From: Candidatus Latescibacterota bacterium
Lineage (GTDB): Bacteria; JAAXHH01
Direction of reading: 5' to 3'
DNA: 64,000 bases
NCBI GenBank assembly: GCA_022823465.1
Contig: JAJEHX010000025.1
Location: forward strand, 1-64,000
A program made the translations under genes and the position numbers. The notes beneath the pieces were generated by a model. That model ran no database searches. It had not been told where the DNA came from and worked only from the letters and a program-made list of their open reading frames with translations. The first letter of the stretch is position 1, and each line of letters starts with the position of its first letter. Below are positions 478 through 32,192 of this stretch, in pieces.

Positions 478-1758
478 ATGGATGATGCCGCGCTCGACCT
501 GCGAATGAACGCCGCCGAAATGGACACCCGGGACGAACTCTCGCCCTTCCGGTCGCGCTTTCATGTTCCCCGGGCCAAAAACGGAGCGGATACGGTCTAC
601 CTGGTGGGCCATTCGCTCGGACTCCAGCCGAAATCCGCCCGGGACTACGTGGACCGGGAGCTCGATGACTGGCGCAGGCTGGGCGTCGAGGGCCACTTCG
701 AGGGGGACAATCCCTGGATGCCCTACCACGAAGCACTGGCAGAGCCGCTGGCCCGCCTCGCGGGCGCCCTGCCCGGCGAAGTCGTGGCCATGAACACCCT
801 TACGGTGAACCTGCACCTGATGATGGTCTCCTTCTACCGTCCCACGCCGGAGCGCAACCGCATCCTCGTCGAGGGGTCCGCATTTCCCTCGGACCAGTAC
901 GCCGTCGCCTCGCAGGCCGCCTGGCACGGTTACGACCCCGCCGAATGCGTGATCGAATTGCATCCCCGGGAAGGGGAGGACGTCATCCGTACCGGGGATA
1001 TCGAGGACCTGCTCGAACGGGAGGGCGAGCAAATCGCGCTGGTCTTCCTGGGCGGGGTGAACTACCTGACCGGCCAGGCCTTCGACATGGAACGGATCAC
1101 CCGGGCGGGCCACCGGCAGGGATGCGTCGTGGGGTTCGACCTCGCCCATGCCATGGGCAACCTGGCGCTGAGTCTTCACGACTGGGACGTCGACTTTGCC
1201 GTCTGGTGTTCCTACAAGTACCTGAACGGAGGACCCGGATGCGTGGGCGGATGCTTCGTCCACGAAAAGCACGGCCGTCGAAACGACCTGCCTCGGTTCG
1301 CCGGATGGTGGGGCCACGACAAGTCCACCCGGTTCCGGATGCCCCCGGCTTTCGAGGCGATCCCGGGGGCGGAAGGCTGGCAGCTCAGCAACCCACCCAT
1401 CCTCCCCCTGGCGGCTCTGCGCGCCTCGCTGGAGCTCTTCGACGAGGCGGGCATGGACCGGCTGCGTGAGAAAAGCAAAAGACTGACCAGGTACCTGGAA
1501 CATCTGCTCCGGACCCGCTTTGCGGATGAACTGGCCGTCATCTCGCCGTCGGACCCGGAACAGCGGGGGTGCCAGCTTTCGCTCAGGACGGGGCCGAAAG
1601 GACAGCGCGTGCACGAGCACCTGTCGGAGCATGGCATCTGGTGCGACTGGCGGGAGCCTGACGTGATCCGTGTCGCCCCCGTGCCGCTCTACAACCGTTT
1701 TAAGGATGTCCATCGTTTCGTGGAGGTCATGGCGGAGGGGATGGAATCGGCCGGATGA
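478..1758 (+). CDS. kynU: Kynureninase
   Basis: PLP-dependent fold-type I hydrolase that cleaves 3-hydroxykynurenine or kynurenine to (3-hydroxy)anthranilate and alanine in the cytosol. The 426-residue length is normal. Recognisable are the N-terminal YLVGHSLG, the GFDLAHAMGN segment with the PLP-pyridine Asp, and WCSYKYLNGGPG with the Schiff-base lysine. The ATG lies three bases after the ACMSD stop and no strong ribosome site precedes it, which suits translational coupling. It feeds 3-hydroxyanthranilate to the dioxygenase encoded at 5221-5745. Confidence 0.93.
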   Translation: MDDAALDLRMNAAEMDTRDELSPFRSRFHVPRAKNGADTVYLVGHSLGLQPKSARDYVDRELDDWRRLGVEGHFEGDNPWMPYHEALAEPLARLAGALPGEVVAMNTLTVNLHLMMVSFYRPTPERNRILVEGSAFPSDQYAVASQAAWHGYDPAECVIELHPREGEDVIRTGDIEDLLEREGEQIALVFLGGVNYLTGQAFDMERITRAGHRQGCVVGFDLAHAMGNLALSLHDWDVDFAVWCSYKYLNGGPGCVGGCFVHEKHGRRNDLPRFAGWWGHDKSTRFRMPPAFEAIPGAEGWQLSNPPILPLAALRASLELFDEAGMDRLREKSKRLTRYLEHLLRTRFADELAVISPSDPEQRGCQLSLRTGPKGQRVHEHLSEHGIWCDWREPDVIRVAPVPLYNRFKDVHRFVEVMAEGMESAG

Positions 1759-1809
1759 CCCTGTTTTGTTCCGGGTTTCATACCGGTCCCAATCCGTTTG
1801 AGGGTGCCG

Positions 1810-3186
1810 ATGAGCATCAAGCGGGAAACCATAACCCTGGTAGGCGCGGGGCTTGCCGGATCCCTGCTGGCGGTCTTTCTCGCCCGCCGTGGATTCCGGA
1901 TCGAAGTATACGAAAAGCGGCCCGATATCCGGCGGGAATCGGCCGGAGCCGGCCAGGCCGGCCTGGCCGGCCGGTCGATCAACCTGGCCATGTCCGTCCG
2001 CGGTCTCCATGCCCTGCACCAGGTCGGCCTGAAGGACGAAGTCCTGGGCATGGCGATACCCATGGCGGGGCGGCTGATCCATCCCGTGGAAGGCGAAAAG
2101 GTCCTCCAGCCCTATGGCCAGCGGGACGAAGAGGTCATCTATTCCGTCTCCCGGGGCGAACTGAACCGGGTCCTGGTGAGCGCAGCGGAGCGGCAGGACG
2201 GCGTACGGCTTCATTTCAATGCCCGGTGCACCGGGGTGGAGTTCCGTACCGGCGTGCTGTACGTCCGCGACGACGCGACCAATCATGTCCACTCGCTCCG
2301 TCCGCGGCGGATCATCGGCGTGGACGGCTCCGCTTCTGCCATCCGGACCGCCATGATGAACGCGGGACGGTTCGATCTCTCCCAGCAGTACCTGACCCAC
2401 GGATACAAGGAACTGACCATTCCCGCCGGACCGGACGGCGCATACAGGATGGAGCCCAACGCCCTGCACATCTGGCCCCGGGGGCTGTACATGCTGATCG
2501 CGCTGCCCAACCTGGACGGCAGTTTCACCTGTACCCTCTTCTTTCCCCACGAAGGCGAATACAGTTTCGACAGCCTCCAGGATCCGGCGCAGGTGCTCGA
2601 CTTTTTCGGCCGACAGTTTCCCGACGCGACGGCGCTTATGCCCGACCTGCCCGCCCTGTACCGCGGCAATCCCACGGGCTCCCTGGTCACGCTCAAGTGT
2701 TTCCCCTGGCACTATCGCGACCGGGTCCTGCTCCTGGGTGACGCCGCCCACGCCATCGTGCCCTTCTTCGGCCAGGGCATGAACTGCGCCTTCGAAGACT
2801 GCACCGTCCTCGATGAATGTATCGAGGCATACTGGCCGGACTGGGGACAGGTATTCGAGTCCTTCGGGCAGCGCAGGAAGGAGAACACGGATGCCATCGC
2901 CGACATGGCGCTTGCGAATTACGTCGAGATGCGCGACCTGGTGAGCGACCCCGGTTTTCAGTTGCGTCAGAAGGTGGGCTTTCTGCTGGAGCAGAGGTTC
3001 CCCGACCTGTTCATCCCGCGGTATTCCATGGTGTCGTTCCACCGGTTTCCCTACAGCGAGGCCCTGCAGCGCGGCGAAATCCAGGACGGCATCCTGCGGG
3101 AGCTTTGCGCTTCCGTCTCCTCGGCGGAACAGGTCGACTGGAACAGGGCGGACCGCCTGGTCAGGGAGCGGCTCGGCACCAACTGA
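1810..3186 (+). CDS. kmo: Kynurenine 3-monooxygenase
   Basis: FAD- and NADPH-dependent hydroxylase making 3-hydroxykynurenine. The N-terminal dinucleotide fold VGAGLAGSLLAVFLARRG and the downstream GDAAHAIVPFFGQGMN motif (FAD ribityl contact and the kynurenine-site loop) are both present, and the length of about 458 residues fits the family. I start it at the ATG at 1810, which has GAGGG five bases upstream, rather than at an in-frame TTG 12 bases earlier. It follows kynU by about 50 bases and belongs to the same operon. The C-terminal third is typical of bacterial KMO, which may associate with the membrane. Confidence 0.92.
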   Translation: MSIKRETITLVGAGLAGSLLAVFLARRGFRIEVYEKRPDIRRESAGAGQAGLAGRSINLAMSVRGLHALHQVGLKDEVLGMAIPMAGRLIHPVEGEKVLQPYGQRDEEVIYSVSRGELNRVLVSAAERQDGVRLHFNARCTGVEFRTGVLYVRDDATNHVHSLRPRRIIGVDGSASAIRTAMMNAGRFDLSQQYLTHGYKELTIPAGPDGAYRMEPNALHIWPRGLYMLIALPNLDGSFTCTLFFPHEGEYSFDSLQDPAQVLDFFGRQFPDATALMPDLPALYRGNPTGSLVTLKCFPWHYRDRVLLLGDAAHAIVPFFGQGMNCAFEDCTVLDECIEAYWPDWGQVFESFGQRRKENTDAIADMALANYVEMRDLVSDPGFQLRQKVGFLLEQRFPDLFIPRYSMVSFHRFPYSEALQRGEIQDGILRELCASVSSAEQVDWNRADRLVRERLGTN

Positions 3187-3238
3187 CCGAAGCATGGCGG
3201 TACGCCGGAAAAGGCCGTGATGATCGGCGCCCGCCGGC

Positions 3239-3267
3239 TTGACAGGCCATCCGGCCAGGTCTACATT
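3239..3267 (+). promoter_or_regulatory. Sigma-70 promoter for the aminomuconate genes
   Basis: TTGACA, 17 bases, TACATT, placed about 70 bases ahead of the dehydrogenase start in the 152-base gap after kmo. Seen directly; the role is inferred. It implies that the lower half of the pathway has its own start in addition to any read-through. Confidence 0.6.
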
Positions 3268-3338
3268 GTATATTACCTTACGCGGCGCACAGGCCTGGCG
3301 CTTCCACCTCCACGTCTCCAACGGTTCTCTCCACAATA

Positions 3339-4778
3339 ATGCATGTACTGAACTACATTGGCGGCAAACTGCGCGAGCCTGCGGGCGGCGGCTACCTGGA
3401 CAACGTCGATCCCGCCACGGCCACCGTGCTGGGCAGGATTCCCGACTCGGACGCCCGGGACGTGGAAGAAGCGGTGAACGCGGCGGAAGACGCCTTCCCG
3501 GCCTGGTCGTCGCTGTCCGTGCAGGAACGTTCCGGGCATCTCCTCCGCATCGCCGACCTGATCGAGGAAAGGCGGGATGAACTGGCCCTGGCGGAATCGA
3601 ACGATACGGGCAAGCCGGTAACCCTGGCGGAGACGGTGGACATCCCCCGCGCCGCGAGCAACTTCCGTTTCTACGCCACGGCCATCGAGCACTTCTCCAG
3701 CGAGACCCACTCCATGGGGAAAGCCGCCTTCAATTACACCCTGCGCGCACCCATCGGCATCGCCGGGTGCATATCTCCCTGGAACCTGCCCCTCTACCTG
3801 CTGACGTGGAAGATCGCGCCGGCGCTCGCCGCGGGCAACTGCGTGATCGGCAAACCCTCGGAACTGACCCCCACGACCGCGTTCCTGCTGTCGGAGATCT
3901 GCAAGGAGGCGGGACTGCCGCCCGGCGTACTGAACATCGTGCACGGCTACGGGCACAGGGCGGGATCGGCGGTGGCGGACCATCCGCGTATCCCGGCCGT
4001 ATCCTTCACCGGCGGGACGGAAACGGGCAGGAAGATCGCAGCCGCGGCCGCCCCGCACTTCAAGCGGGTCTCCCTCGAACTGGGCGGAAAGAACCCGAAC
4101 ATCGTCTTCGCGGACTGTCCCTACGAGGAAGCGCTGCAGACCGCCCTGCCGTCCTCTTTCTCCAACCAGGGCGAGATCTGTCTGTGCGGCCCGCGCATCT
4201 TCATCGAACGTCCCCTCTACGATACCTTTCGCGACGATTTCGTCGAGCGGACCCGGCAACTGACCGTCGGCGATCCCCGGTCCGCGGGCAATCGGCTCGG
4301 CGCCGTGGTGTCGGAGACCCACATGGACAAGATCCTGTCCTACATCGAACTGGCCAGGGACGAAGGCGGACGGATCCTCTGCGGGGGTCACAGGGTTCGG
4401 GAAAAGGGGCGCTGCAGGGACGGATGGTTCGTGGCGCCCACGGTGATCGAAGGCCTGCCGCCGGACTGCCGGACCAACCAGGAGGAGATCTTCGGCCCCG
4501 TCGTGTCGCTCATGCCCTTCGATTCCGAGGATGAAGTAATAGCCCAGGCCAACGGCACGCCGTACGGTCTCGCCGCCATGCTGTGGACCGGCAGCCTGGG
4601 CCGGGCTCACCGCGTCGCCGAGCGACTGCACGCCGGCATCATCTGGATCAACTGCTGGATGCTGCGGGACCTTCGGACGCCCTTTGGCGGCATGAAGCAT
4701 TCGGGCGTGGGCCGCGAAGGGGGATTAGAGGCCCTTCGGTTCTTCACGGAACCCAAGAACGTGTGCATAAAAATGTAG
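3339..4778 (+). CDS. 2-aminomuconate 6-semialdehyde dehydrogenase
   Basis: NAD-dependent aldehyde dehydrogenase of 479 residues oxidising 2-aminomuconate semialdehyde to 2-aminomuconate. Family marks: SPWNLPLYLLTWK (NAD-binding), FTGGTETGRKI, the glutamate motif LELGGKNPN, the catalytic cysteine in NQGEICLCGPR, and EEIFGPVV. The closest subfamily by wording is the hydroxymuconic/aminomuconic semialdehyde dehydrogenases (AmnC/NbaE/XylG). The substrate assignment rests on position between kmo/ACMSD and the deaminase. It is separated by 12 bases from the next gene. Confidence 0.87.
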   Translation: MHVLNYIGGKLREPAGGGYLDNVDPATATVLGRIPDSDARDVEEAVNAAEDAFPAWSSLSVQERSGHLLRIADLIEERRDELALAESNDTGKPVTLAETVDIPRAASNFRFYATAIEHFSSETHSMGKAAFNYTLRAPIGIAGCISPWNLPLYLLTWKIAPALAAGNCVIGKPSELTPTTAFLLSEICKEAGLPPGVLNIVHGYGHRAGSAVADHPRIPAVSFTGGTETGRKIAAAAAPHFKRVSLELGGKNPNIVFADCPYEEALQTALPSSFSNQGEICLCGPRIFIERPLYDTFRDDFVERTRQLTVGDPRSAGNRLGAVVSETHMDKILSYIELARDEGGRILCGGHRVREKGRCRDGWFVAPTVIEGLPPDCRTNQEEIFGPVVSLMPFDSEDEVIAQANGTPYGLAAMLWTGSLGRAHRVAERLHAGIIWINCWMLRDLRTPFGGMKHSGVGREGGLEALRFFTEPKNVCIKM

Positions 4779-4790
4779 CGGAGAGTGGAA

Positions 4791-5204
4791 TTGCATAAAC
4801 ATTATGATTCCGACCGCGCACCCGAACCGGTGGGACCCTATCCCCACGCCCGCCGCGTGGGCAACCTGCTGTTTCTCTCGGGCATCGGTCCCCGCGCCAG
4901 GGGCCGGCGGGATATCCCGGGCGTGACCCTGGGACCGGACGGCGAGATCGCGTCCTACGATATCGAGGAACAGTGTCATTCGGTCTTCCATAACGTCCGC
5001 TGCATCCTCGAAGACGCGGGCAGCGCCTGGGAGAACCTGGTGGACATCACCGTGTACCTTACCGACATGGAAAGGGACTTCGCGGTATTCAACCGGATCT
5101 ACCGTGAGTATTTCAAAGAGAACCAGCCCTGCCGGACCACGGTTGGCGTTTCGCGGCTTCCCACCCGGATTGCCATCGAACTGAAATGCATCGCCACTAT
5201 CTGA
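4791..5204 (+). CDS. RidA-family 2-aminomuconate deaminase
   Basis: Small RidA/YjgF-fold protein of about 137 residues, expected to hydrolyse 2-aminomuconate to 4-oxalocrotonate and ammonia, as in the AmnD/NbaF branch. The pattern YPHARRVGNLLFLSGIGPR and the C-terminal RTTVGVSRLP segment are typical. Two non-ATG starts are possible: GTG at 4785 with GGAG only one base ahead, or TTG at 4791 with the same GGAG at seven bases. The TTG is chosen for that spacing. Other RidA proteins deaminate generic enamines, so specificity is from context. Confidence 0.8.
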   Translation: MHKHYDSDRAPEPVGPYPHARRVGNLLFLSGIGPRARGRRDIPGVTLGPDGEIASYDIEEQCHSVFHNVRCILEDAGSAWENLVDITVYLTDMERDFAVFNRIYREYFKENQPCRTTVGVSRLPTRIAIELKCIATI

Positions 5205-5220
5205 ACAAGGAGGTTCGATC

Positions 5221-5745
5221 ATGGCGGTAACGGCTCCATTCAACTTCAAGGCCTGGATAGACGAGCACAGGCATCTGCTCAAACCTCCGGTCGGCAACCA
5301 GTGCGTCTACACGGAAGCGGAGGACTTCATCGTCATGGTCGTCGGCGGACCGAACGCCCGCAAGGACTACCACTACAACGAGGGCGAGGAGTTCTTCTAC
5401 CAGGTGGAGGGTGACATCGTACTGAAGATCATCGACGACGGCAGGCCGGTGGACATCCAGATCCGGGAAGGGGAGATCTTCCTGCTGCCGGCCGGCGTGC
5501 CCCACTCGCCCCAGCGACCGGCGGACACCGTGGGGCTGGTCATGGAGACCAAACGGAGAAGCGGTGAAATCGACGGGTTCATGTGGTATTGCGAAAGCTG
5601 CGGAAAGAAACTCTACGAAGAACACTTCGAACTGGAAGACATCGTCAGCCAGTTGCCGCCCGTCATGAACCGGTTCTTCAGCAGCGAGGAAAACCGAACC
5701 TGCAGGCACTGCGGCGCGGTCATGCCGAAACCGGAAGGCGGGTGA
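5221..5745 (+). CDS. nbaC: 3-hydroxyanthranilate 3,4-dioxygenase
   Basis: Cupin dioxygenase of 174 residues that opens the ring of 3-hydroxyanthranilate with O2 to give the ACMSD substrate. The catalytic Fe(II) set is visible: the His and Glu in DYHYNEGEEFFY and the later His in VPHSPQRP. The C-terminus keeps the second, rubredoxin-like iron site as CESC and CRHC pairs, which bacterial enzymes have. AAGGAGG lies seven bases before the ATG. It closes the kynurenine cluster; tryptophan dioxygenase and formamidase are not in the window. Confidence 0.94.
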   Translation: MAVTAPFNFKAWIDEHRHLLKPPVGNQCVYTEAEDFIVMVVGGPNARKDYHYNEGEEFFYQVEGDIVLKIIDDGRPVDIQIREGEIFLLPAGVPHSPQRPADTVGLVMETKRRSGEIDGFMWYCESCGKKLYEEHFELEDIVSQLPPVMNRFFSSEENRTCRHCGAVMPKPEGG

Positions 5746-6324: not shown

Positions 6325-7515
6325 TCAGAATTCCAAGCCGAGTTGAACGGTGAAGATATCCCCGTTCGCGCCGGTGCCTTCATAGGCGGTCCCGTAGTCC
6401 CGGTCGTGTACCCACTCGAAGGTACCAAAAAGCAACTCGTTCCACAGATCCACGCTGAGCACGGCGAGGTACCTTGAAGCGGGCAATCCCAGGCCCGACG
6501 CTTCGGAAGTTCCCTGGTAACCCAGCATGAAGTCCCCGGACCTGCCCGCCAGTTCGAACCCATAGGCGGCTTCGAACGACCACGCCGAAGGACGGGCGCC
6601 ACGGGCGCCGAATGCCAGCAACTCCGGCTCGAAACGGTTCTGGGCGATCATGTATTCTCCGGCCACCGACACTTCGCCTAGCGCCAGTTGAGTGGCCAGC
6701 GACCAGCCCGGCGCCCGGTCTTCGTTATAGACTGCGGTCGGTCCGTGCCCGCCGTCGGCCGATGACTCGTGTTGTTCGTACAATCCCTCCTGGAAACTGT
6801 CCAGCGTACCCAGGTCGTCGATATAAGACAGGTTGAAAGCCAACCCGCCTTCTTCTTCCTCGCCCTTCTTGTAGCCCAAAGCGGCGCCGAATCCGGTTCG
6901 CGGGTCATGGGTGCGTTCGTCGTCGCCGTAGTATCCATAGACATTCCCCAGAAACGGACCCATTGAAACGCCCAGCACCAGCGATTTCTCCCGCTTCGAG
7001 CCATACTCGAAGGACAAAGGATCGATTATCGCGCCGGTCTCGAACGGTCCGATGCTCGCATCGTGCACCGCATGGACTTCGGCCAGTTCAAACAGGGTGA
7101 AGGGAAGAAACTGGATACCGCCCTTCAACCACCACCAGCCGTCCGGTGGCCCGATGACGACTGTCGCCATGATGATCCCGATGCCGTGACCCGCTTCATG
7201 TTCTTCTTCGTCTTCTTCGTGTTCGTGTAGCCAGATGACCTCGGTACCGAACCAGTCATGGGGCTCGATACCGATTCCGAGTTCCAGTTGCTCGGCCGCC
7301 GTGGAAGTGGAAACCTCGTCCTCAAAAGACCTTTCGCGCGACGCCGAAAGCTCCACGACACCGCCGATTTCAATGTATTTCATCAACGATCCCGCTTCAG
7401 CCTCCCCCGAAGCTTCCTGGGCGCTCGCGGTACTGCACCAGAATGCGGCAAAAAGCAGGGCGATAAGCGCGACCGGGACTCGGTGTTCATGCAAATCGCT
7501 GCTGGCGTTACACAC
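6325..7515 (-). CDS. LbtU-like outer-membrane porin
   Basis: Secreted 396-residue protein: a hydrophobic signal segment at about residues 14-33 ends in ASAQ, followed by alternating aromatic/hydrophobic strands typical of a beta-barrel and a C-terminal strand ending in aromatic LEF. The wording IEIGGVVELSAS...LGIGIEPHDWFGTEVIW resembles the LbtU siderophore-porin family. An early loop at about residues 98-112 is very rich in His and Glu and could bind metal. Start is a GTG with AAGGAG upstream, immediately after three 11-bp repeats. It lies downstream of the cupin gene and of an iron-box type promoter, which agrees with a role in metal or siderophore passage. The family call is by resemblance only. 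Confidence 0.6.
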   Translation of the reverse strand: MCNASSDLHEHRVPVALIALLFAAFWCSTASAQEASGEAEAGSLMKYIEIGGVVELSASRERSFEDEVSTSTAAEQLELGIGIEPHDWFGTEVIWLHEHEEDEEEHEAGHGIGIIMATVVIGPPDGWWWLKGGIQFLPFTLFELAEVHAVHDASIGPFETGAIIDPLSFEYGSKREKSLVLGVSMGPFLGNVYGYYGDDERTHDPRTGFGAALGYKKGEEEEGGLAFNLSYIDDLGTLDSFQEGLYEQHESSADGGHGPTAVYNEDRAPGWSLATQLALGEVSVAGEYMIAQNRFEPELLAFGARGARPSAWSFEAAYGFELAGRSGDFMLGYQGTSEASGLGLPASRYLAVLSVDLWNELLFGTFEWVHDRDYGTAYEGTGANGDIFTVQLGLEF

Positions 7516-7532
7516 GTGGCTCGCTACTCCTT

Positions 7533-7565
7533 AGTATAGAATCAGTATAGAATCAGTATAGAATC
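7533..7565 (-). repeat. Three tandem 11-bp repeats carrying TATACT
   Basis: On the minus strand GATTCTATACT occurs three times head to tail, directly before the ribosome site of the porin gene. Each copy contains TATACT, a good -10 hexamer, so the array may be a multi-start promoter, a slippage-prone spacer, or a binding array. Confidence 0.8.
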
Positions 7566-7641
7566 GCGGCTGTTCGTTTCCGGACCACCGGGAAAAAATG
7601 GAATCGCCACCGTGCATTCCCGGCCTCGGTTTTCTCTCGAA

Positions 7642-7959
7642 TCAGGGATGGGGCGCCATGAATACCAGCACCACCAGCCGCTCTCCGCCTGAGTTCAGAA
7701 CGCCGTGATCCACCCCGGGGGGACACAGCACGGCCGTACCGGGAACACCCTTTACGGTTTCATCTCCGACCGTGAAATCTCCGTTACCTTCCAGCACGTA
7801 GTAGATCTTGTCGTTTTCGGCGTGACTGTGAGCCTTCTGTTCCTGTCCCGGCTCGAAACAGTAGATGTCGCAGAACATGCGTTCCGTGTCGAAGAGATTG
7901 ACCTTCTGGAACTTCTCTTTCGAAAACTGTTTCTGTTCCGGTACGAACGTCACCGGCAT
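7642..7959 (-). CDS. Cupin-domain protein
   Basis: Single-domain cupin of 105 residues. Cupin motif 1 is seen as the His-rich KAHSHAENDKIYYVLEG, and motif 2 as CPPGVDHGVLN, so a metal site of three His and a Glu/Asp is likely. AAAGGAG lies nine bases before the ATG. It is the first gene behind the iron-box promoter at 8231-8295, read toward the porin 126 bases further on. Such stand-alone cupins can be dioxygenases, isomerases or small-molecule sensors; nothing here decides which. A link to iron is inferred from its promoter. Confidence 0.75.
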   Translation of the reverse strand: MPVTFVPEQKQFSKEKFQKVNLFDTERMFCDIYCFEPGQEQKAHSHAENDKIYYVLEGNGDFTVGDETVKGVPGTAVLCPPGVDHGVLNSGGERLVVLVFMAPHP

Positions 7960-8365
7960 GACGGCACGCTCCTTTGGCGATTGGCGCCTGACTGATATCG
8001 AGTCATCTCGAAGTATCTGAAAACCAGGTACTCAGTCGTTGCAGGTCCAGGTGAAAGATGAATGCGGAACTCGATGCGGATGCCGGTCTCGGAATCCGGT
8101 GCGGAAGACAAACCACTTGCGACCGGACCGGATACCGCCTTAACTTCAACGCGGGCAACCGATCAGGACGCGAATCTATCTGCACATTTCGCCGTTGTCA
8201 ACTTCCAGTGGCGCGTGATATGGACTGTCGTAATTTTTAGTCTAGACTAAATATATAGTTATATAATATATGTGTCAATAATTAGATTAAGAAAACAGCA
8301 GGGCCGATCTGAACCGAAACCGGCAAGACCATGCCTGAGAAAACCAGTGGAGCCGCAACCAGTCC
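7960..8365. other. 406-base intergenic region between cupin and dus
   Basis: Contains the leftward iron-box promoter at 8231-8295 and a leader of roughly 280 bases running to the cupin gene. A 60-residue frame in the leader has no coding character that I can support. I see no clear sigma-70 promoter for the rightward dus gene beyond the AT-rich element itself. Confidence 0.6.
8231..8295 (-). promoter_or_regulatory. Leftward promoter with DtxR-type operator (copy 1)
   Basis: Read on the minus strand: TTGACA (8273-8278), 17 bases, TATATT (8250-8255), then the perfect 16-bp palindrome TTTAGTCTAGACTAAA (8236-8251), which overlaps the -10 and the likely start point. The 65-base stretch matches the promoter of the DtxR/feo operon at 27986-28050 at 57 positions. 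A palindrome overlapping the start site suits metal-dependent repression by the DtxR-type regulator at 28104. Confidence 0.8.
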
Positions 8366-27442: not shown

Positions 27443-27838
27443 TCAACCCTGTGGGCGGGAAGTGCGGGCAGTCTGCAAACACGTTTCGATGAACTCCGGT
27501 AATCTTTTGACGAACTCCGACCTGGGCACGGCCCGTTCGCAGCCCGCAGCCCGGGCACGCTCGAAGGCTTCGGGCCGCGTATGCCGGCCGTAGGCCATCA
27601 TCGGCGTATTCTCGCTGGCTCTGCCAGCCCTCAGATGCGAAATCAAATCCACGGCGTCCGTACGCGACAGGTCGAGATCCACGATGATCGCGGCCGGCTT
27701 TCTGTCATCTGAATCATCCGGGATCTCGCCCACTTCCGCCGCGAAGAGTGGTTTGCCGCCAAGCTGACGAACGGTCTCCCCTATTTTCGAAGAGAAAAAC
27801 AGGTCGTCCACCACCACGAGTATGGTATGGTCGGTCAT
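27443..27838 (-). CDS. Receiver-like single-domain protein
   Basis: About 131 residues from MTDHTILVVVDD. The pattern of a CheY-like fold is recognisable: acidic pair DD at 10-11, a candidate phospho-Asp strand AIIVDLDLS, and the alternation of strands and helices up to a C-terminal helix, with no output domain. It departs from classical receivers in the loop after the acid pair (DDLFFSSKI) and lacks an obvious conserved Lys, so phosphorylation is uncertain. It lies 43 bases upstream of the PolX-like gene on the same strand. Partner unknown. Confidence 0.65.
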   Translation of the reverse strand: MTDHTILVVVDDLFFSSKIGETVRQLGGKPLFAAEVGEIPDDSDDRKPAAIIVDLDLSRTDAVDLISHLRAGRASENTPMMAYGRHTRPEAFERARAAGCERAVPRSEFVKRLPEFIETCLQTARTSRPQG

Positions 27839-27985
27839 TACGGCTCCAGGGTGGTTCCAAGCTGGCTGACAGCACTTCGGCATTCGAATATAAAGACGGG
27901 ATTCTACCGGAAACAAGCGTATTGTTCAGCCCTGCGACACATACCACGGATAGAACGGCCCGTATCAGTTCAGGCCGGCCTGGTA

Positions 27986-28050
27986 TTTTCTATATCTAAC
28001 TATTGACACATATATCATATAACTATATATTTAGTCCTGTCTAAAAATCA
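27986..28050 (+). promoter_or_regulatory. Promoter with DtxR-type operator (copy 2) of the feo operon
   Basis: TTGACA (28003-28008), 17 bases, TATATT (28026-28031), then TTTAGTCCTGTCTAAA (28030-28045), the same operator as at 8236 but with an imperfect centre. The operator covers the expected start point. It lies 60 bases ahead of the DtxR gene, indicating autoregulation together with the iron-uptake genes. Confidence 0.82.
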
Positions 28051-28103
28051 TGCCGCCTTCTGCCACTGCATGCGGCCGCCGAAATCGTTTACGGAAGTTT
28101 CCC

Positions 28104-28796
28104 ATGCCTACGCCAGCCACCGAAGATTATCTGAAGGCCATCTACAAGCTGCAGGAAAACGCGGAAGCCGCGTCGACCAATGCCATTGCGGACCGGATGG
28201 GGGTCTCGGCCGCCTCCGTCACCAACATGATGAAAAGACTGTCGGAGACCGGCCTGGTCGAGCACCGGCCCTACCAGGCGATCAGGCTGACCGACGCGGG
28301 AAGAAAGATCGCCCTGGAAATCATCCGTCACCACCGGTTGCTGGAGGTGTACATGGCGGAAGCGCTCGGGTTTACGTGGGACCAGGTGGACGCGGAGGCG
28401 GAACGGCTCGAGCACGTGATCTCCGAAGAGTTCGAGGACAAGATCGATGCCATGCTGGGATACCCGACGACGGATCCGCACGGATCGCCCATACCGGCAA
28501 AGGACGGGTCCATAGCCCGCGCGAACCACGACAGGCTGTCCGACATGGAACCCGGCCGTACCGTGGTCATTCGCAGGGTGACGGACACGGATCCCGCCTT
28601 GCTCCGTTACCTGGGGAAACTCGGTCTCCGGCCGGACAGCGTCGTGGGCGTATTGAATAAAGAGCCCTTTGAAGGGCCCATGCTTCTGCGTGTGGGCGGC
28701 GAGGAACACCACGTGGGGCACCAGGTCGCCTCCAGTGTCCTGGTTGAATGTGTGGCGGCCGGGCAAAAGGAAAACGACCGGCGGGCAGAATCATGA
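28104..28796 (+). CDS. DtxR-family metal-dependent repressor (MntR/IdeR type)
   Basis: About 230 residues. N-terminal winged helix (TEDYLKAIYKLQENAEAA...IADRMGVSAASVTNMMKRL), dimerisation and metal domain with the ligand-bearing IIRHHRLLEVYM and ERLEHVISEE segments, and a C-terminal SH3/FeoA-like domain. I start it at the ATG at 28104, which has GGAAG six bases upstream and gives the canonical N-terminus; an in-frame ATG at 28050 lies almost at the transcription start. It represses DNA binding targets when charged with Fe(II) or Mn(II). First gene of the feo operon; its stop overlaps the next start (ATGA). Confidence 0.9.
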   Translation: MPTPATEDYLKAIYKLQENAEAASTNAIADRMGVSAASVTNMMKRLSETGLVEHRPYQAIRLTDAGRKIALEIIRHHRLLEVYMAEALGFTWDQVDAEAERLEHVISEEFEDKIDAMLGYPTTDPHGSPIPAKDGSIARANHDRLSDMEPGRTVVIRRVTDTDPALLRYLGKLGLRPDSVVGVLNKEPFEGPMLLRVGGEEHHVGHQVASSVLVECVAAGQKENDRRAES

Positions 28797-29899
28797 CGGA
28801 AATCATCATACTCATTGCCATCGGCGCGCTTTTCCTGCCTCAATATGGCCTGTACTGGCGCCTGCGGCGCAGGCGGTGGCTGCATTTGAGGCAGGCCGTG
28901 GACGACGCCCTGGCCCATCTGCACCAGTTCCAGCACGACGGCCGGCAGGCGTCCGTGGAGTCCCTTTCAAACACCCTGGGCATATCGACGAAGCACACCC
29001 TGACCCTGGTCGACCGCATGGCGCAACTGGACCTCGTGGTCATGACGGGGCAGGGCATGCGACTCACGGCGGAAGGCCACCGCTGGGCGCTCCAGATCAT
29101 CCGGGCTCACCGGCTGTTCGAGCGGTATCTCGCCGACGAAACCTCCGTGCCCCGGGAAGAAATCCACGCCCGCGCCCACCAGCTGGAACACACGGTGACC
29201 GAAGCGCAGGTCGATAAGATGGACGCCGATATGGGACATCCCACCTTCGATCCCCAGGGAGATCCGATCCCGAACGCCGCCGGCGACATGAAGGAGATCG
29301 AAAGCCAGAAACTCGTCGACTGGCCGGATGGCAAACCGGCGCAGATCGTGCATATCGAGGACGAACCCCCGGAAGTGTATGCCCAGATCATCGCGGAGGA
29401 CCTCCATCCCGGCATGACCATCACGATCATGGACATGTCGCCCGTACGGGTCGTCATCGGCACACCGGACGCCGAACACGTACTGGCCCCGGTGGTCGCG
29501 GCGAACATTTCCGTGCGGGAGGCGCCCACTGACCGCATCGAACCGGCGGACGTCCCGCTCACGACGCTGAAACACGGCGAAGCGGGCCGCGTAGTCGGAC
29601 TGTCACCGGCCTGCCAGGGCCTGACCCGGCGGAGATTCCTCGACCTGGGTCTGACGCCCGGAGCGCGCATCGAGCGGGTCATGCAGAGCGCCTTCAGCGA
29701 TCCCACGGCCTACCGGGTCCGGAATACCCTGATCGCCCTCCGCCGCGAACAGTCCGATATGGTCCGGATCGAACGGGCCACGGGGACCGAAGGGTCCGAA
29801 CGGGCTGGACCGCCCGCGCTGAGCGCACAGGCCGACGGGATCGAACGGACCGGACCGCCTGCACAGCACGAACAGAACGAAAGGGAGATCGGAGCATGA
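28793..29899 (+). CDS. Membrane-anchored DtxR-like protein fused to a FeoA domain
   Basis: 368 residues. A short N-terminal membrane helix (about 2-19) and basic stretch RLRRRR, then a DtxR-type winged helix (SLSNTLGISTKHTLTLVDRMAQLDLV), a dimerisation/metal region paralogous to the upstream repressor (IIRAHRLFERYL, HQLEHTVTEAQVDKMDADMGHP), and a FeoA domain near 255-325 (LKHGEAGRVVGL...RRFLDLGLTPG...YRVRNTLIALRR). The tail is low-complexity. It takes the place of feoA between the repressor and feoB, with 4-base overlaps on both sides. A membrane-tethered metal sensor or a FeoB-associated adaptor are both possible. Confidence 0.75.
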   Translation: MTEIIILIAIGALFLPQYGLYWRLRRRRWLHLRQAVDDALAHLHQFQHDGRQASVESLSNTLGISTKHTLTLVDRMAQLDLVVMTGQGMRLTAEGHRWALQIIRAHRLFERYLADETSVPREEIHARAHQLEHTVTEAQVDKMDADMGHPTFDPQGDPIPNAAGDMKEIESQKLVDWPDGKPAQIVHIEDEPPEVYAQIIAEDLHPGMTITIMDMSPVRVVIGTPDAEHVLAPVVAANISVREAPTDRIEPADVPLTTLKHGEAGRVVGLSPACQGLTRRRFLDLGLTPGARIERVMQSAFSDPTAYRVRNTLIALRREQSDMVRIERATGTEGSERAGPPALSAQADGIERTGPPAQHEQNEREIGA

Positions 29900-30768
29900 G
29901 TACGGAATCCGCGCCGCCGGGACCACCGGGACCGAACGGTCCGCCTGCGTCGACCGGATCGCCTGCAACGTCTGCACCGAACGCGCCGCCGGGACATGAC
30001 TGCGCATCCTGTGCATTGCAGGAAAACCTGGTCCAGATGGGGATCACGCTGGACCGGTGGGACTATGTCATCGCCCTGGCGGGTAACCCGAACGTGGGAA
30101 AGAGCACGGTATTCAACGCCTTGACCGGTTTGAAGCAGCATACGGGGAACTGGCCGGGCAAGACGGTGATTCGGGCCGAGGGCGGCTTCGAGTTTAATGG
30201 CAGAAGGTACAAGATGATCGATCTGCCCGGCACGTATTCCCTCCTTTCGGCCTCCATAGACGAGGAGATCGCCCGGGACTTCATCCTCTTCGGACGTCCG
30301 GACTGCACGATGATCGTCGTCGACGCCACCATGCTCGAGCGCAATCTCAACCTGGCGCTCCAGGTGCTGGAGATAACGGACAGGGCGGTGGTCTGCCTGA
30401 ACCTGATGGACGAGGCCGAACACAAGGGCATCTCGGTGGATCACCGCGCGCTGTCGCGCGAACTGGGCGTGCCGGTCGTACCGGTAACGGCAAGGAAGAA
30501 GGAAGGGCTCGGCCTCCTGATGCGCACGGTCGCCGACGTGATCCAGGGGACGATCCGCAACGCGCCCCGGCGCATTACAGGCAACGGGGACCTCGACCGG
30601 ACAGTGGATACGATTACGGGCATGCTGCGCGAATCTTACCCGGACCTGCCGAACCCCCGCTGGATCGCCTTTCGGCTCCTCGACGGGGACTACCGGGTGC
30701 GCCAGGCCCTGGAGCTGGGAGATTTCAGCCGGATGGGCGCCCAGGCGGAACAACAGACACTGGAATGA
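29896..30768 (+). CDS. feoB: FeoB GTPase domain as a separate protein
   Basis: 290 residues: a Pro/Gly/Ser-rich N-terminal 35 residues and a CASC motif, then the FeoB G-domain with G1 GNPNVGKST, G2 region NWPGKTV, G3 DLPGTYSL, G4 NLMD and a G5-like VTARKKEG, and the helical guanine-dissociation-inhibitor region. No membrane segment follows; the protein stops where a normal FeoB would enter its membrane part. The start overlaps the preceding stop, and the stop overlaps the next start, so stoichiometric synthesis with the permease half is likely. Confidence 0.88.
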   Translation: MSTESAPPGPPGPNGPPASTGSPATSAPNAPPGHDCASCALQENLVQMGITLDRWDYVIALAGNPNVGKSTVFNALTGLKQHTGNWPGKTVIRAEGGFEFNGRRYKMIDLPGTYSLLSASIDEEIARDFILFGRPDCTMIVVDATMLERNLNLALQVLEITDRAVVCLNLMDEAEHKGISVDHRALSRELGVPVVPVTARKKEGLGLLMRTVADVIQGTIRNAPRRITGNGDLDRTVDTITGMLRESYPDLPNPRWIAFRLLDGDYRVRQALELGDFSRMGAQAEQQTLE

Positions 30769-32192
30769 GGGACATGAGCGACACCACGACTAAACCCCGT
30801 ACCGGGGAGGACATTCTCGGCCGGGTAGAAGAAATGCAACGGGGGCTGGAAGGGTCGTACCGGGACGAGATCGTCGAAGCCATCTACCAGGATGCCGAGG
30901 CCATCACCCGGAAGGTGGTCCGCACCGACGAAGAGACTTCCTATCCCTGGGACCAGAAGCTGGACCGCATCGTAACCTCGAAGGTCTGGGGGCTTCCCTT
31001 CATGGCCCTGCTTCTGGGTATCGTCTTCTGGGTCACGATTTCGGGGGCGAACGTGCCCTCCGCCATGCTGGCCGAAGGCCTTTTCTGGCTGGGCGCGCGG
31101 GGAGTCGAGTTATTCAATGCCCTGGGCATGCCCTGGTGGGTCACGGGATTCATCTGGCACGGCGTCTATCGGGGACTGGCCTGGGTGGTCTCCGTCATGC
31201 TTCCGCCCATGGCGATCTTCTTCCCCATATTCACCATTCTGGAAGACCTGGGGTACCTGCCCCGCGTGGCCTTCAACGTCGACGCGCTGTTCAAGAAGGC
31301 CGGCGCCCACGGCAAGCAGGCGCTCACCATGAGCATGGGGCTGGGCTGCAACGCGGCGGGCGTCGTGGCCTGCCGGGTCATCGATTCGCCCCGGGAGCGG
31401 CTGATCGCCATCCTCACCAACAACTTCATGCCCTGCAACGGCAGGTGGCCCACGCTGATCATACTCGCGACCCTGTTCGTGGCGGCAGCCTTCCCGCCCG
31501 CCTTCGCGGCCATGGCCGCGGCCGGCTCCCTGGTCCTCATCGTCCTGATCGGCGCCGCGACGACCCTGCTGGTATCGGCCATACTGTCCCGGTCCTTCCT
31601 GCGCGGCGAGGCCAGCAGCTTCACGCTGGAACTCCCGCCCTACCGCCGTCCCAGCATCCTGCGCGTGCTGTACACCTCACTCATAGACCGGACGATCTTC
31701 GTATTGTGGCGCGCGGTGGTCATGGCCGTGCCGGCGGGCGGGGTGATCTGGCTGCTGAGCAACATCTACGCCGGGGGACAGAGCCTGACGGTATGGGTCT
31801 CGCAGTGGCTGGAGCCCGTGGGGCGCGCCATTGGCCTCGACGGCGTCATCCTGCTGGCCTACGTCATCGCCATCCCCGCCAACGAAATCGTGGTCCCGAC
31901 CATCATCATGGCCTACACGGGCGCGGGCATGATGATCGAACTGGACACGATGGAGGAACTGCGGCATCTCCTGGTGGACCAGCAGGGATGGACCCTCCTC
32001 ACCGCCGTCTGCCTGATGCTCTTTTCCCTGCTGCACAACCCGTGTTCCACGACCATGTGGACGGTATACCGGGAGACCAGGAGCGTCAAATGGACCGTAG
32101 TCAGCGGTCTCATGCCCCTGGTCATCGCCTTCATCCTGCTCTTCATCGTCGCCCAGACCGTCTACTGGATCATGGGCCTGGCGGGATGGTGA
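30765..32192 (+). CDS. feoB: FeoB membrane (permease) domain as a separate protein
   Basis: 475 residues holding the ferrous-iron channel half of FeoB. About eight membrane helices and two Gate domains are visible, with the conserved MSMGLGCNAAGVVACRVIDSPRERLIA and LLHNPCSTTMWTVYRET segments that carry the channel cysteines. The first 65 residues are soluble and helical. Two starts are possible: the overlapping ATG at 30765 or one nine bases later with GAGG ahead of it. It ends four bases short of the convergent cysNC stop. Confidence 0.9.
   Translation: MRDMSDTTTKPRTGEDILGRVEEMQRGLEGSYRDEIVEAIYQDAEAITRKVVRTDEETSYPWDQKLDRIVTSKVWGLPFMALLLGIVFWVTISGANVPSAMLAEGLFWLGARGVELFNALGMPWWVTGFIWHGVYRGLAWVVSVMLPPMAIFFPIFTILEDLGYLPRVAFNVDALFKKAGAHGKQALTMSMGLGCNAAGVVACRVIDSPRERLIAILTNNFMPCNGRWPTLIILATLFVAAAFPPAFAAMAAAGSLVLIVLIGAATTLLVSAILSRSFLRGEASSFTLELPPYRRPSILRVLYTSLIDRTIFVLWRAVVMAVPAGGVIWLLSNIYAGGQSLTVWVSQWLEPVGRAIGLDGVILLAYVIAIPANEIVVPTIIMAYTGAGMMIELDTMEELRHLLVDQQGWTLLTAVCLMLFSLLHNPCSTTMWTVYRETRSVKWTVVSGLMPLVIAFILLFIVAQTVYWIMGLAGW

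Follow-up and report, generated by a model that had tools for sequence, protein, structure and literature searches.

Does the palindromic operator that lies ahead of a small cupin gene and an outer-membrane porin gene place these genes under the same control as the Fe(II) uptake operon, and what would pass through the porin? The question arises in the window analysed here, the whole 64,000-nucleotide stretch from a Candidatus Latescibacterota bacterium (contig 19 of a 3.86-Mb assembly). Our principal reading, to which we assign a probability of roughly 60%, is that one promoter-operator cassette puts both FeoB and the porin under a DtxR-type repressor, that the two proteins would take iron across the inner and the outer membrane, respectively, and that the control of the porin arose by duplication of the feo region.

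A promoter-operator cassette at the porin and feo loci

The putative DtxR-type operator TTTAGTCTAGACTAAA (8236–8251, minus strand) overlaps the -10 hexamer and the expected transcription start of a sigma-70-like promoter, TTGACA-17-TATATT, which has 11 of 12 consensus bases and runs into the operator on the minus strand (8278–8250). The initial annotation had described this operator as a perfect palindrome and its feo counterpart as an imperfect one, with a promoter facing a cupin and an LbtU-like barrel protein, and each of these points is borne out: 8 of 8 dyad positions pair in the porin-side copy against 6 of 8 in the window's feo copy, and the two proteins match Pfam PF07883 and NCBIfam NF033652 (152.3 bits), respectively. 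The feo copy, TTTAGTCCTGTCTAAA at 28030–28045 before the DtxR/feo genes, is the sole other match to TTTAGTCTAGACTAAA in the window at up to 3 mismatches, with 0.02 expected by chance. Note that the palindrome by itself is weak evidence, because the window contains six perfect 16-bp palindromes as compared to 0–5 in 20 shuffles; it is the longer shared cassette that carries the case. The block common to the two sites spans about 50 bp, much longer than the operator. The porin-side cassette (8225–8292, minus strand) scored 66.3 bits (E 8.5e-18) with cassette model R1, this copy being itself among those used to build the model, and the feo cassette (27989–28055, plus strand) scored 68.6 bits.

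The feo site encodes a DtxR-family protein directly at the cassette. This presumed regulator (28050–28796, plus strand) is a DtxR-type metal-dependent repressor fused to a FeoA domain (Pfam Fe_dep_repress, PF01325; Fe_dep_repr_C, PF02742; FeoA). Downstream on the same strand are a second DtxR-like/FeoA protein (28748–29899; Fe_dep_repr_C and FeoA), which has an N-terminal hydrophobic segment (hydropathy 2.05 over 19 residues from residue 12) and may be membrane-anchored, and the GTPase half (29896–30768; FeoB_N) and membrane half (30765–32192; Gate and FeoB_C) of FeoB. The splitting of FeoB into GTPase and membrane ORFs is not peculiar to the window, separate matches being found also in the relatives examined, including two genomes of other genera (G012 and G013).

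The arrangement resembles DtxR/IdeR-type regulons in combining a repressor that has HTH and metal/dimerisation domains with a palindromic TTTAG...CTAAA operator over the promoter. It differs from them in its half-site, TTTAGTC as opposed to the TTAGG core of DtxR operators, and in having only two strong sites per genome. The classical core TTAGG-N6-CCTAA was searched for separately and rejected as a description of the site: the window has 6 matches at 2 mismatches versus 8.9 expected, none of them at the site.

Distribution of the cassette within the order

We surveyed 16 genomes of the order, 12 of which belong to the genus of the window. The cassette was found before dtxR-feo in all 12 genus genomes (one of these copies is interrupted by contig ends), and 9 of the 12 also carry it at the porin locus; within the genus the conserved palindromic operator overlaps the promoter at both loci. 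Twenty copies from 11 genomes, 18 of them from relatives, could be aligned without gaps over 70 columns, 24 of which are invariant (alignment A2). The perfect palindrome, which the initial annotation took as possibly marking the tighter site, is not conserved but unique to the window genome, as the other 8 porin-side copies pair at 5–7 of 8 positions and the 11 feo copies at 5–6 of 8.

A search of all 16 genomes with the cassette model returned 20 strong copies (at least 51.9 bits) in 11 of the 12 genus genomes, these being the same copies from which the model was built. The remaining genome, G006, gave two partial matches, both located where a contig ends and one at the dtxR start, which we read as a single cut feo copy. 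No strong copy was found in the 16 genomes beyond the feo and porin loci, and because the next match after the 20 strong copies reached only 22.4 bits, the model indicates no third strong member of the regulon. This next-best match lies before dtxR in another genus and contains the operator TTTAGTCATGGCTAAA; a weak match of 10.6 bits was found before dtxR in a third genus. G006 alone has an operon for di-haem cytochrome-like, Rieske-like and barrel proteins with an operator-like sequence, TTTAGTATAGGCTAAA, upstream (L041:3669-6600). This operon was set aside as a third regulon member, its di-haem protein being present in 1 of 12 genomes.

The initial annotation had suggested following the synteny of cupin, porin and operator through related genomes. 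For porin and operator this synteny holds: of the 9 porin-bearing relatives, 7 have the operator 70–90 bp upstream of the first porin codon in the alignment. The cassette is directly before the porin in seven relatives; in four of these (G001, G005, G007 and G010) it is situated between cupin and porin, and the other three (G002, G003 and G008) have no cupin. G004 has its cassette after the cupin, on a contig that stops short of any porin. G006 and G011 contain both cupin and porin, with the cassette neither between nor before them, and these two genomes speak against joint control. The window genome stands alone in having the cassette upstream of the cupin.

The cupin is probably a bystander

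The small cupin (105 aa; 7642–7959, minus strand; Cupin_2, 61.2 bits) had been proposed as a co-regulated member of the DtxR regulon. This proposal was not supported, as the operator before the cupin is not conserved in the relatives; in those with a cassette at this locus, it stands after the cupin or is found without it. The cupin also has a promoter of its own, TTGACA-17-TAGATT (8173–8201, minus strand), which is conserved along with the leader in cupin-bearing relatives. Cupin orthologs of at least 73% identity were detected in 11 of the 16 genomes of the order. In G013 and G015, which belong to other genera and have no porin, the cupin adjoins dus, and the small ORF that lies beyond the porin in the genus is next to the cupin in G015 and G012. 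This suggests that the porin entered an older neighbourhood, and the cupin is therefore most simply viewed as a bystander. A stretch of the cupin leader, TCGCAAG...TTTGTC (8107–8122), was present in 10 of 10 aligned genomes, three of which lack the cupin, and it gave no Rfam match.

A potential concern is whether the cassette has come to control only the cupin in the window genome, the porin being transcribed from another promoter so that porin and feo are not co-regulated there. The cupin does separate cassette from porin in this genome, three tandem 12-mers containing TATACT are found just before the porin start (7533–7565, minus strand), and the porin lies on a long branch (see below). Against this, neither the approximately 280-base leader nor the cupin-porin interval contains an intrinsic terminator-like site, no further sigma-70-like match precedes the porin, and the gap between cupin and porin is short. 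We therefore regard separate control of the window porin as unlikely and favor read-through from the cassette. In Rfam searches, the window yielded a single tRNA and the leader no match even at E 10.

Origin of the porin promoter

A receiver-like ORF (27443–27916, minus strand; named by eye, without a Pfam match) lies upstream of feo. Decayed, colinear pieces of this ORF were found beside the porin cassette in six of the nine genomes with a cassette at this locus (G001, G002, G003, G004, G007 and G010), and for each of these six flanks none of 200 dinucleotide shuffles scored as high. The flank of G008 was borderline (5 of 200 shuffles), and no remnant was found in the porin flanks of the window genome (G000) and G005, for which 148 and 86 of 200 shuffles, respectively, scored as high. 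On account of the remnants in six of nine genomes, the porin probably captured a duplicated upstream region of feo together with its promoter. The placement of the window cassette in a tree of 130 bp had a support of 0.49 only, as between recapture from feo and a simple move.

Gene trees also bear on the history of the locus. The window porin sits on a much longer branch than the porins of the relatives, with core genes that are close, which suggests fast change or replacement. The porins of G006 and G011 cluster together, contrary to the core-gene tree. The long branch and this grouping lead us to suggest that the porin locus has recombined or changed fast.

The porin belongs to the LbtU family

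The porin (396 aa; 6325–7515, minus strand) matched NF033652, the NCBIfam model for LbtU family siderophore porins, well above the cut-off of 90 bits and over model positions 3–327 of 327. Members above cut-off were found in 10 of the 12 genus genomes and in none of the four genomes that represent the rest of the order; among the genus genomes, no porin was found in G009, which is 87% complete. The genus porins carry a His/Glu-rich loop resembling HEHEEDxxEEEEGH, the same place being occupied by EDxTExVxxDEG in the proteins of G128, G250 and G112 (alignment A6, three genus members and four from outside). REHEE replaces HEHE in 3 of the 10 genus members. The loop is a candidate metal-binding site.

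Structure prediction gave a barrel of 16 strands with a mean pLDDT of 46, a low-confidence model built from six sequences. Its best matches were the OmpF/OmpC porins at a TM score of about 0.5, and fold matches are supportive at most given such a pLDDT. A sequence search of solved structures returned unrelated proteins, the best at E 0.14.

LbtU-family porins outside the genus and the nature of the cargo

At an E-value threshold of 1e-10, NF033652 had matches in 26 of 384 genomes, 10 of them in the genus and 16 elsewhere. In two of the 16 unrelated genomes the porin is located in a dtxR-feoA-feoB cluster. The order in G128, on one strand, is dtxR, porin, feoA, a FeoA-like stretch identified by eye, and feoB, and a palindrome, GTTAGACTCGTCTAAC, with a plan similar to that of the window site is found upstream of dtxR. 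In G250 a DtxR-FeoA protein is followed by feoB and then, 1.2 kb on, by the porin. The number of LbtU loci expected within 5 kb of feo is 0.075, and the probability of two or more is about 0.003. One additional LbtU genome, G390, was recovered from the phyla or class of G128, G250 and G271 (7, 2 and 7 genomes covered, respectively). FeoB was searched for in all 16 outside genomes, and no feo link was found in the other 14; in six of these 14, the neighbourhoods of eight LbtU loci were annotated for 20 ORFs. The surroundings of one LbtU copy in G279 are siderophore-like, with a TonB receptor and a Peripla_BP_2 protein adjacent. The absence of a feo link in 14 of the 16 genomes and the setting in G279 indicate that the LbtU family is not uniform.

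This lack of uniformity matters for the cargo, because the porin could instead act as a receptor, independent of TonB, for a ferri-siderophore that neighbours produce, in which case the co-regulation of the porin with feo would simply reflect a shared response to iron starvation. Consistent with such a role are its membership in the family above the curated cut-off, the siderophore-like setting in G279, and the precedent of Legionella pneumophila, in which LbtU imports ferri-rhizoferrin and lbtU and feo are both Fur-regulated (accessible text of PMC11705809). The window porin resembles LbtU also in being, by context, an iron-regulated outer-membrane protein, but it is preceded by a putative DtxR-type site whereas Legionella lbtU is under Fur. 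Two findings count against a siderophore receptor. The order lacks a cognate synthetase of the NIS (LbtA) type, with IucA/IucC (PF04183) found in 0 of 16 genomes by a search that covered the NIS type as distinct from NRPS pathways, and the porin is linked to feoAB in two unrelated genomes. We consider a receptor for foreign siderophores improbable. Of the outer-membrane metal or siderophore pathway envisaged in the initial annotation as co-regulated with Fe(II) uptake, the porin part is upheld by conservation across the genus, and the cupin and siderophore parts are not.

The crossing of the outer membrane by Fe(II) in bacteria with Feo systems is usually ascribed to general porins. A clear exception is FupA of Francisella (PMC5378763), which, going by the accessible portions of the reports, provides high-affinity passage of Fe(II) over the outer membrane and works with FeoB (PMC5378763, PMC7432831). 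The pairing of an outer-membrane pore with FeoB for Fe(II), established by assay in Francisella, would have its counterpart here, with the difference that FupA is under a different regulator. Given that the porin is linked to feo, that no IucA/IucC synthetase was found in the 16 genomes of the order and that FupA and FeoB set a precedent, Fe(II) is more likely than a siderophore to be the cargo of the porin.

A model for joint control of FeoB and the porin

The sequences establish the shared cassette and its two sites, the remnants of duplication, the place of the porin in the LbtU family and the link to feo in two unrelated genomes; from these we infer that joint control would operate as follows. 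The repressor encoded at 28050–28796 would control two units, namely the operon that contains its own gene and the split feoB, and the porin of the LbtU family. Under ample supply of the metal, most likely Fe(II), this protein would occupy the palindrome over the -10 region and start site and so block both promoters; when the metal is scarce, the inner-membrane FeoB and the outer-membrane porin would be made together, the porin acting as an entry for iron, probably as Fe(II). The porin would have come under feo control when part of the DNA upstream of feo was duplicated in front of it. In the window genome alone, where the cassette is upstream of the cupin, the cupin would be carried along and the porin probably read through.

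The identity of the metal is a point on which the repressor itself gives a different indication, its best NCBIfam match being the Thermus-type MntR model (213.7 bits, below the cut-off of 350). The repressor could accordingly be MntR-like and the cassette Mn-responsive, with FeoB and the porin serving Mn(II) or both metals. We judge this to be quite unlikely, since the products of the controlled operon include FeoA domains and FeoB, and the porin's family is known in connection with iron (PMC8891985 and PMC11705809, in their accessible parts). That the two sites are merely similar AT-rich promoters lacking a common operator is very improbable: short palindromes do occur by chance in the window, but the chance expectation for the second match, the retention of the cassette, with its invariant columns, at feo and porin across the genus, and the operator kept before dtxR in another genus all argue against it.

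In the mostly open-access literature on LbtU, DtxR/feo, FupA, iron in Latescibacterota and promoter capture, including PMC7005843, we found in the accessible text no LbtU porin described as DtxR-controlled or as part of a feo operon. Beyond joint control in this genus, we offer a broader proposal as tentative, somewhat short of even odds: LbtU-family porins may include a distinct class that provides dedicated outer-membrane entry of Fe(II) for Feo systems and whose genes, across several unrelated phyla, lie with feoAB or share their regulation, with wiring in Latescibacterota by capture of the feo promoter region and with the His/Glu-rich loop as a metal-selecting element. If this is true, a porin family connected with feoAB through operator, operon and promoter capture in lineages far apart would make the outer-membrane step of Fe(II) uptake testable, and NCBI's name for the LbtU family, 'siderophore porin', may be misleading for some of its members. 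The porin locus would also be a legible case of entry into a regulon by way of a copied promoter accompanied by scraps of that promoter's neighbour gene.

Elsewhere in the window, a run of ORFs (478–5745) resembles genes of kynurenine catabolism; the one tested, at 5221–5745, encodes a 3-hydroxyanthranilate dioxygenase (Pfam PF06052).
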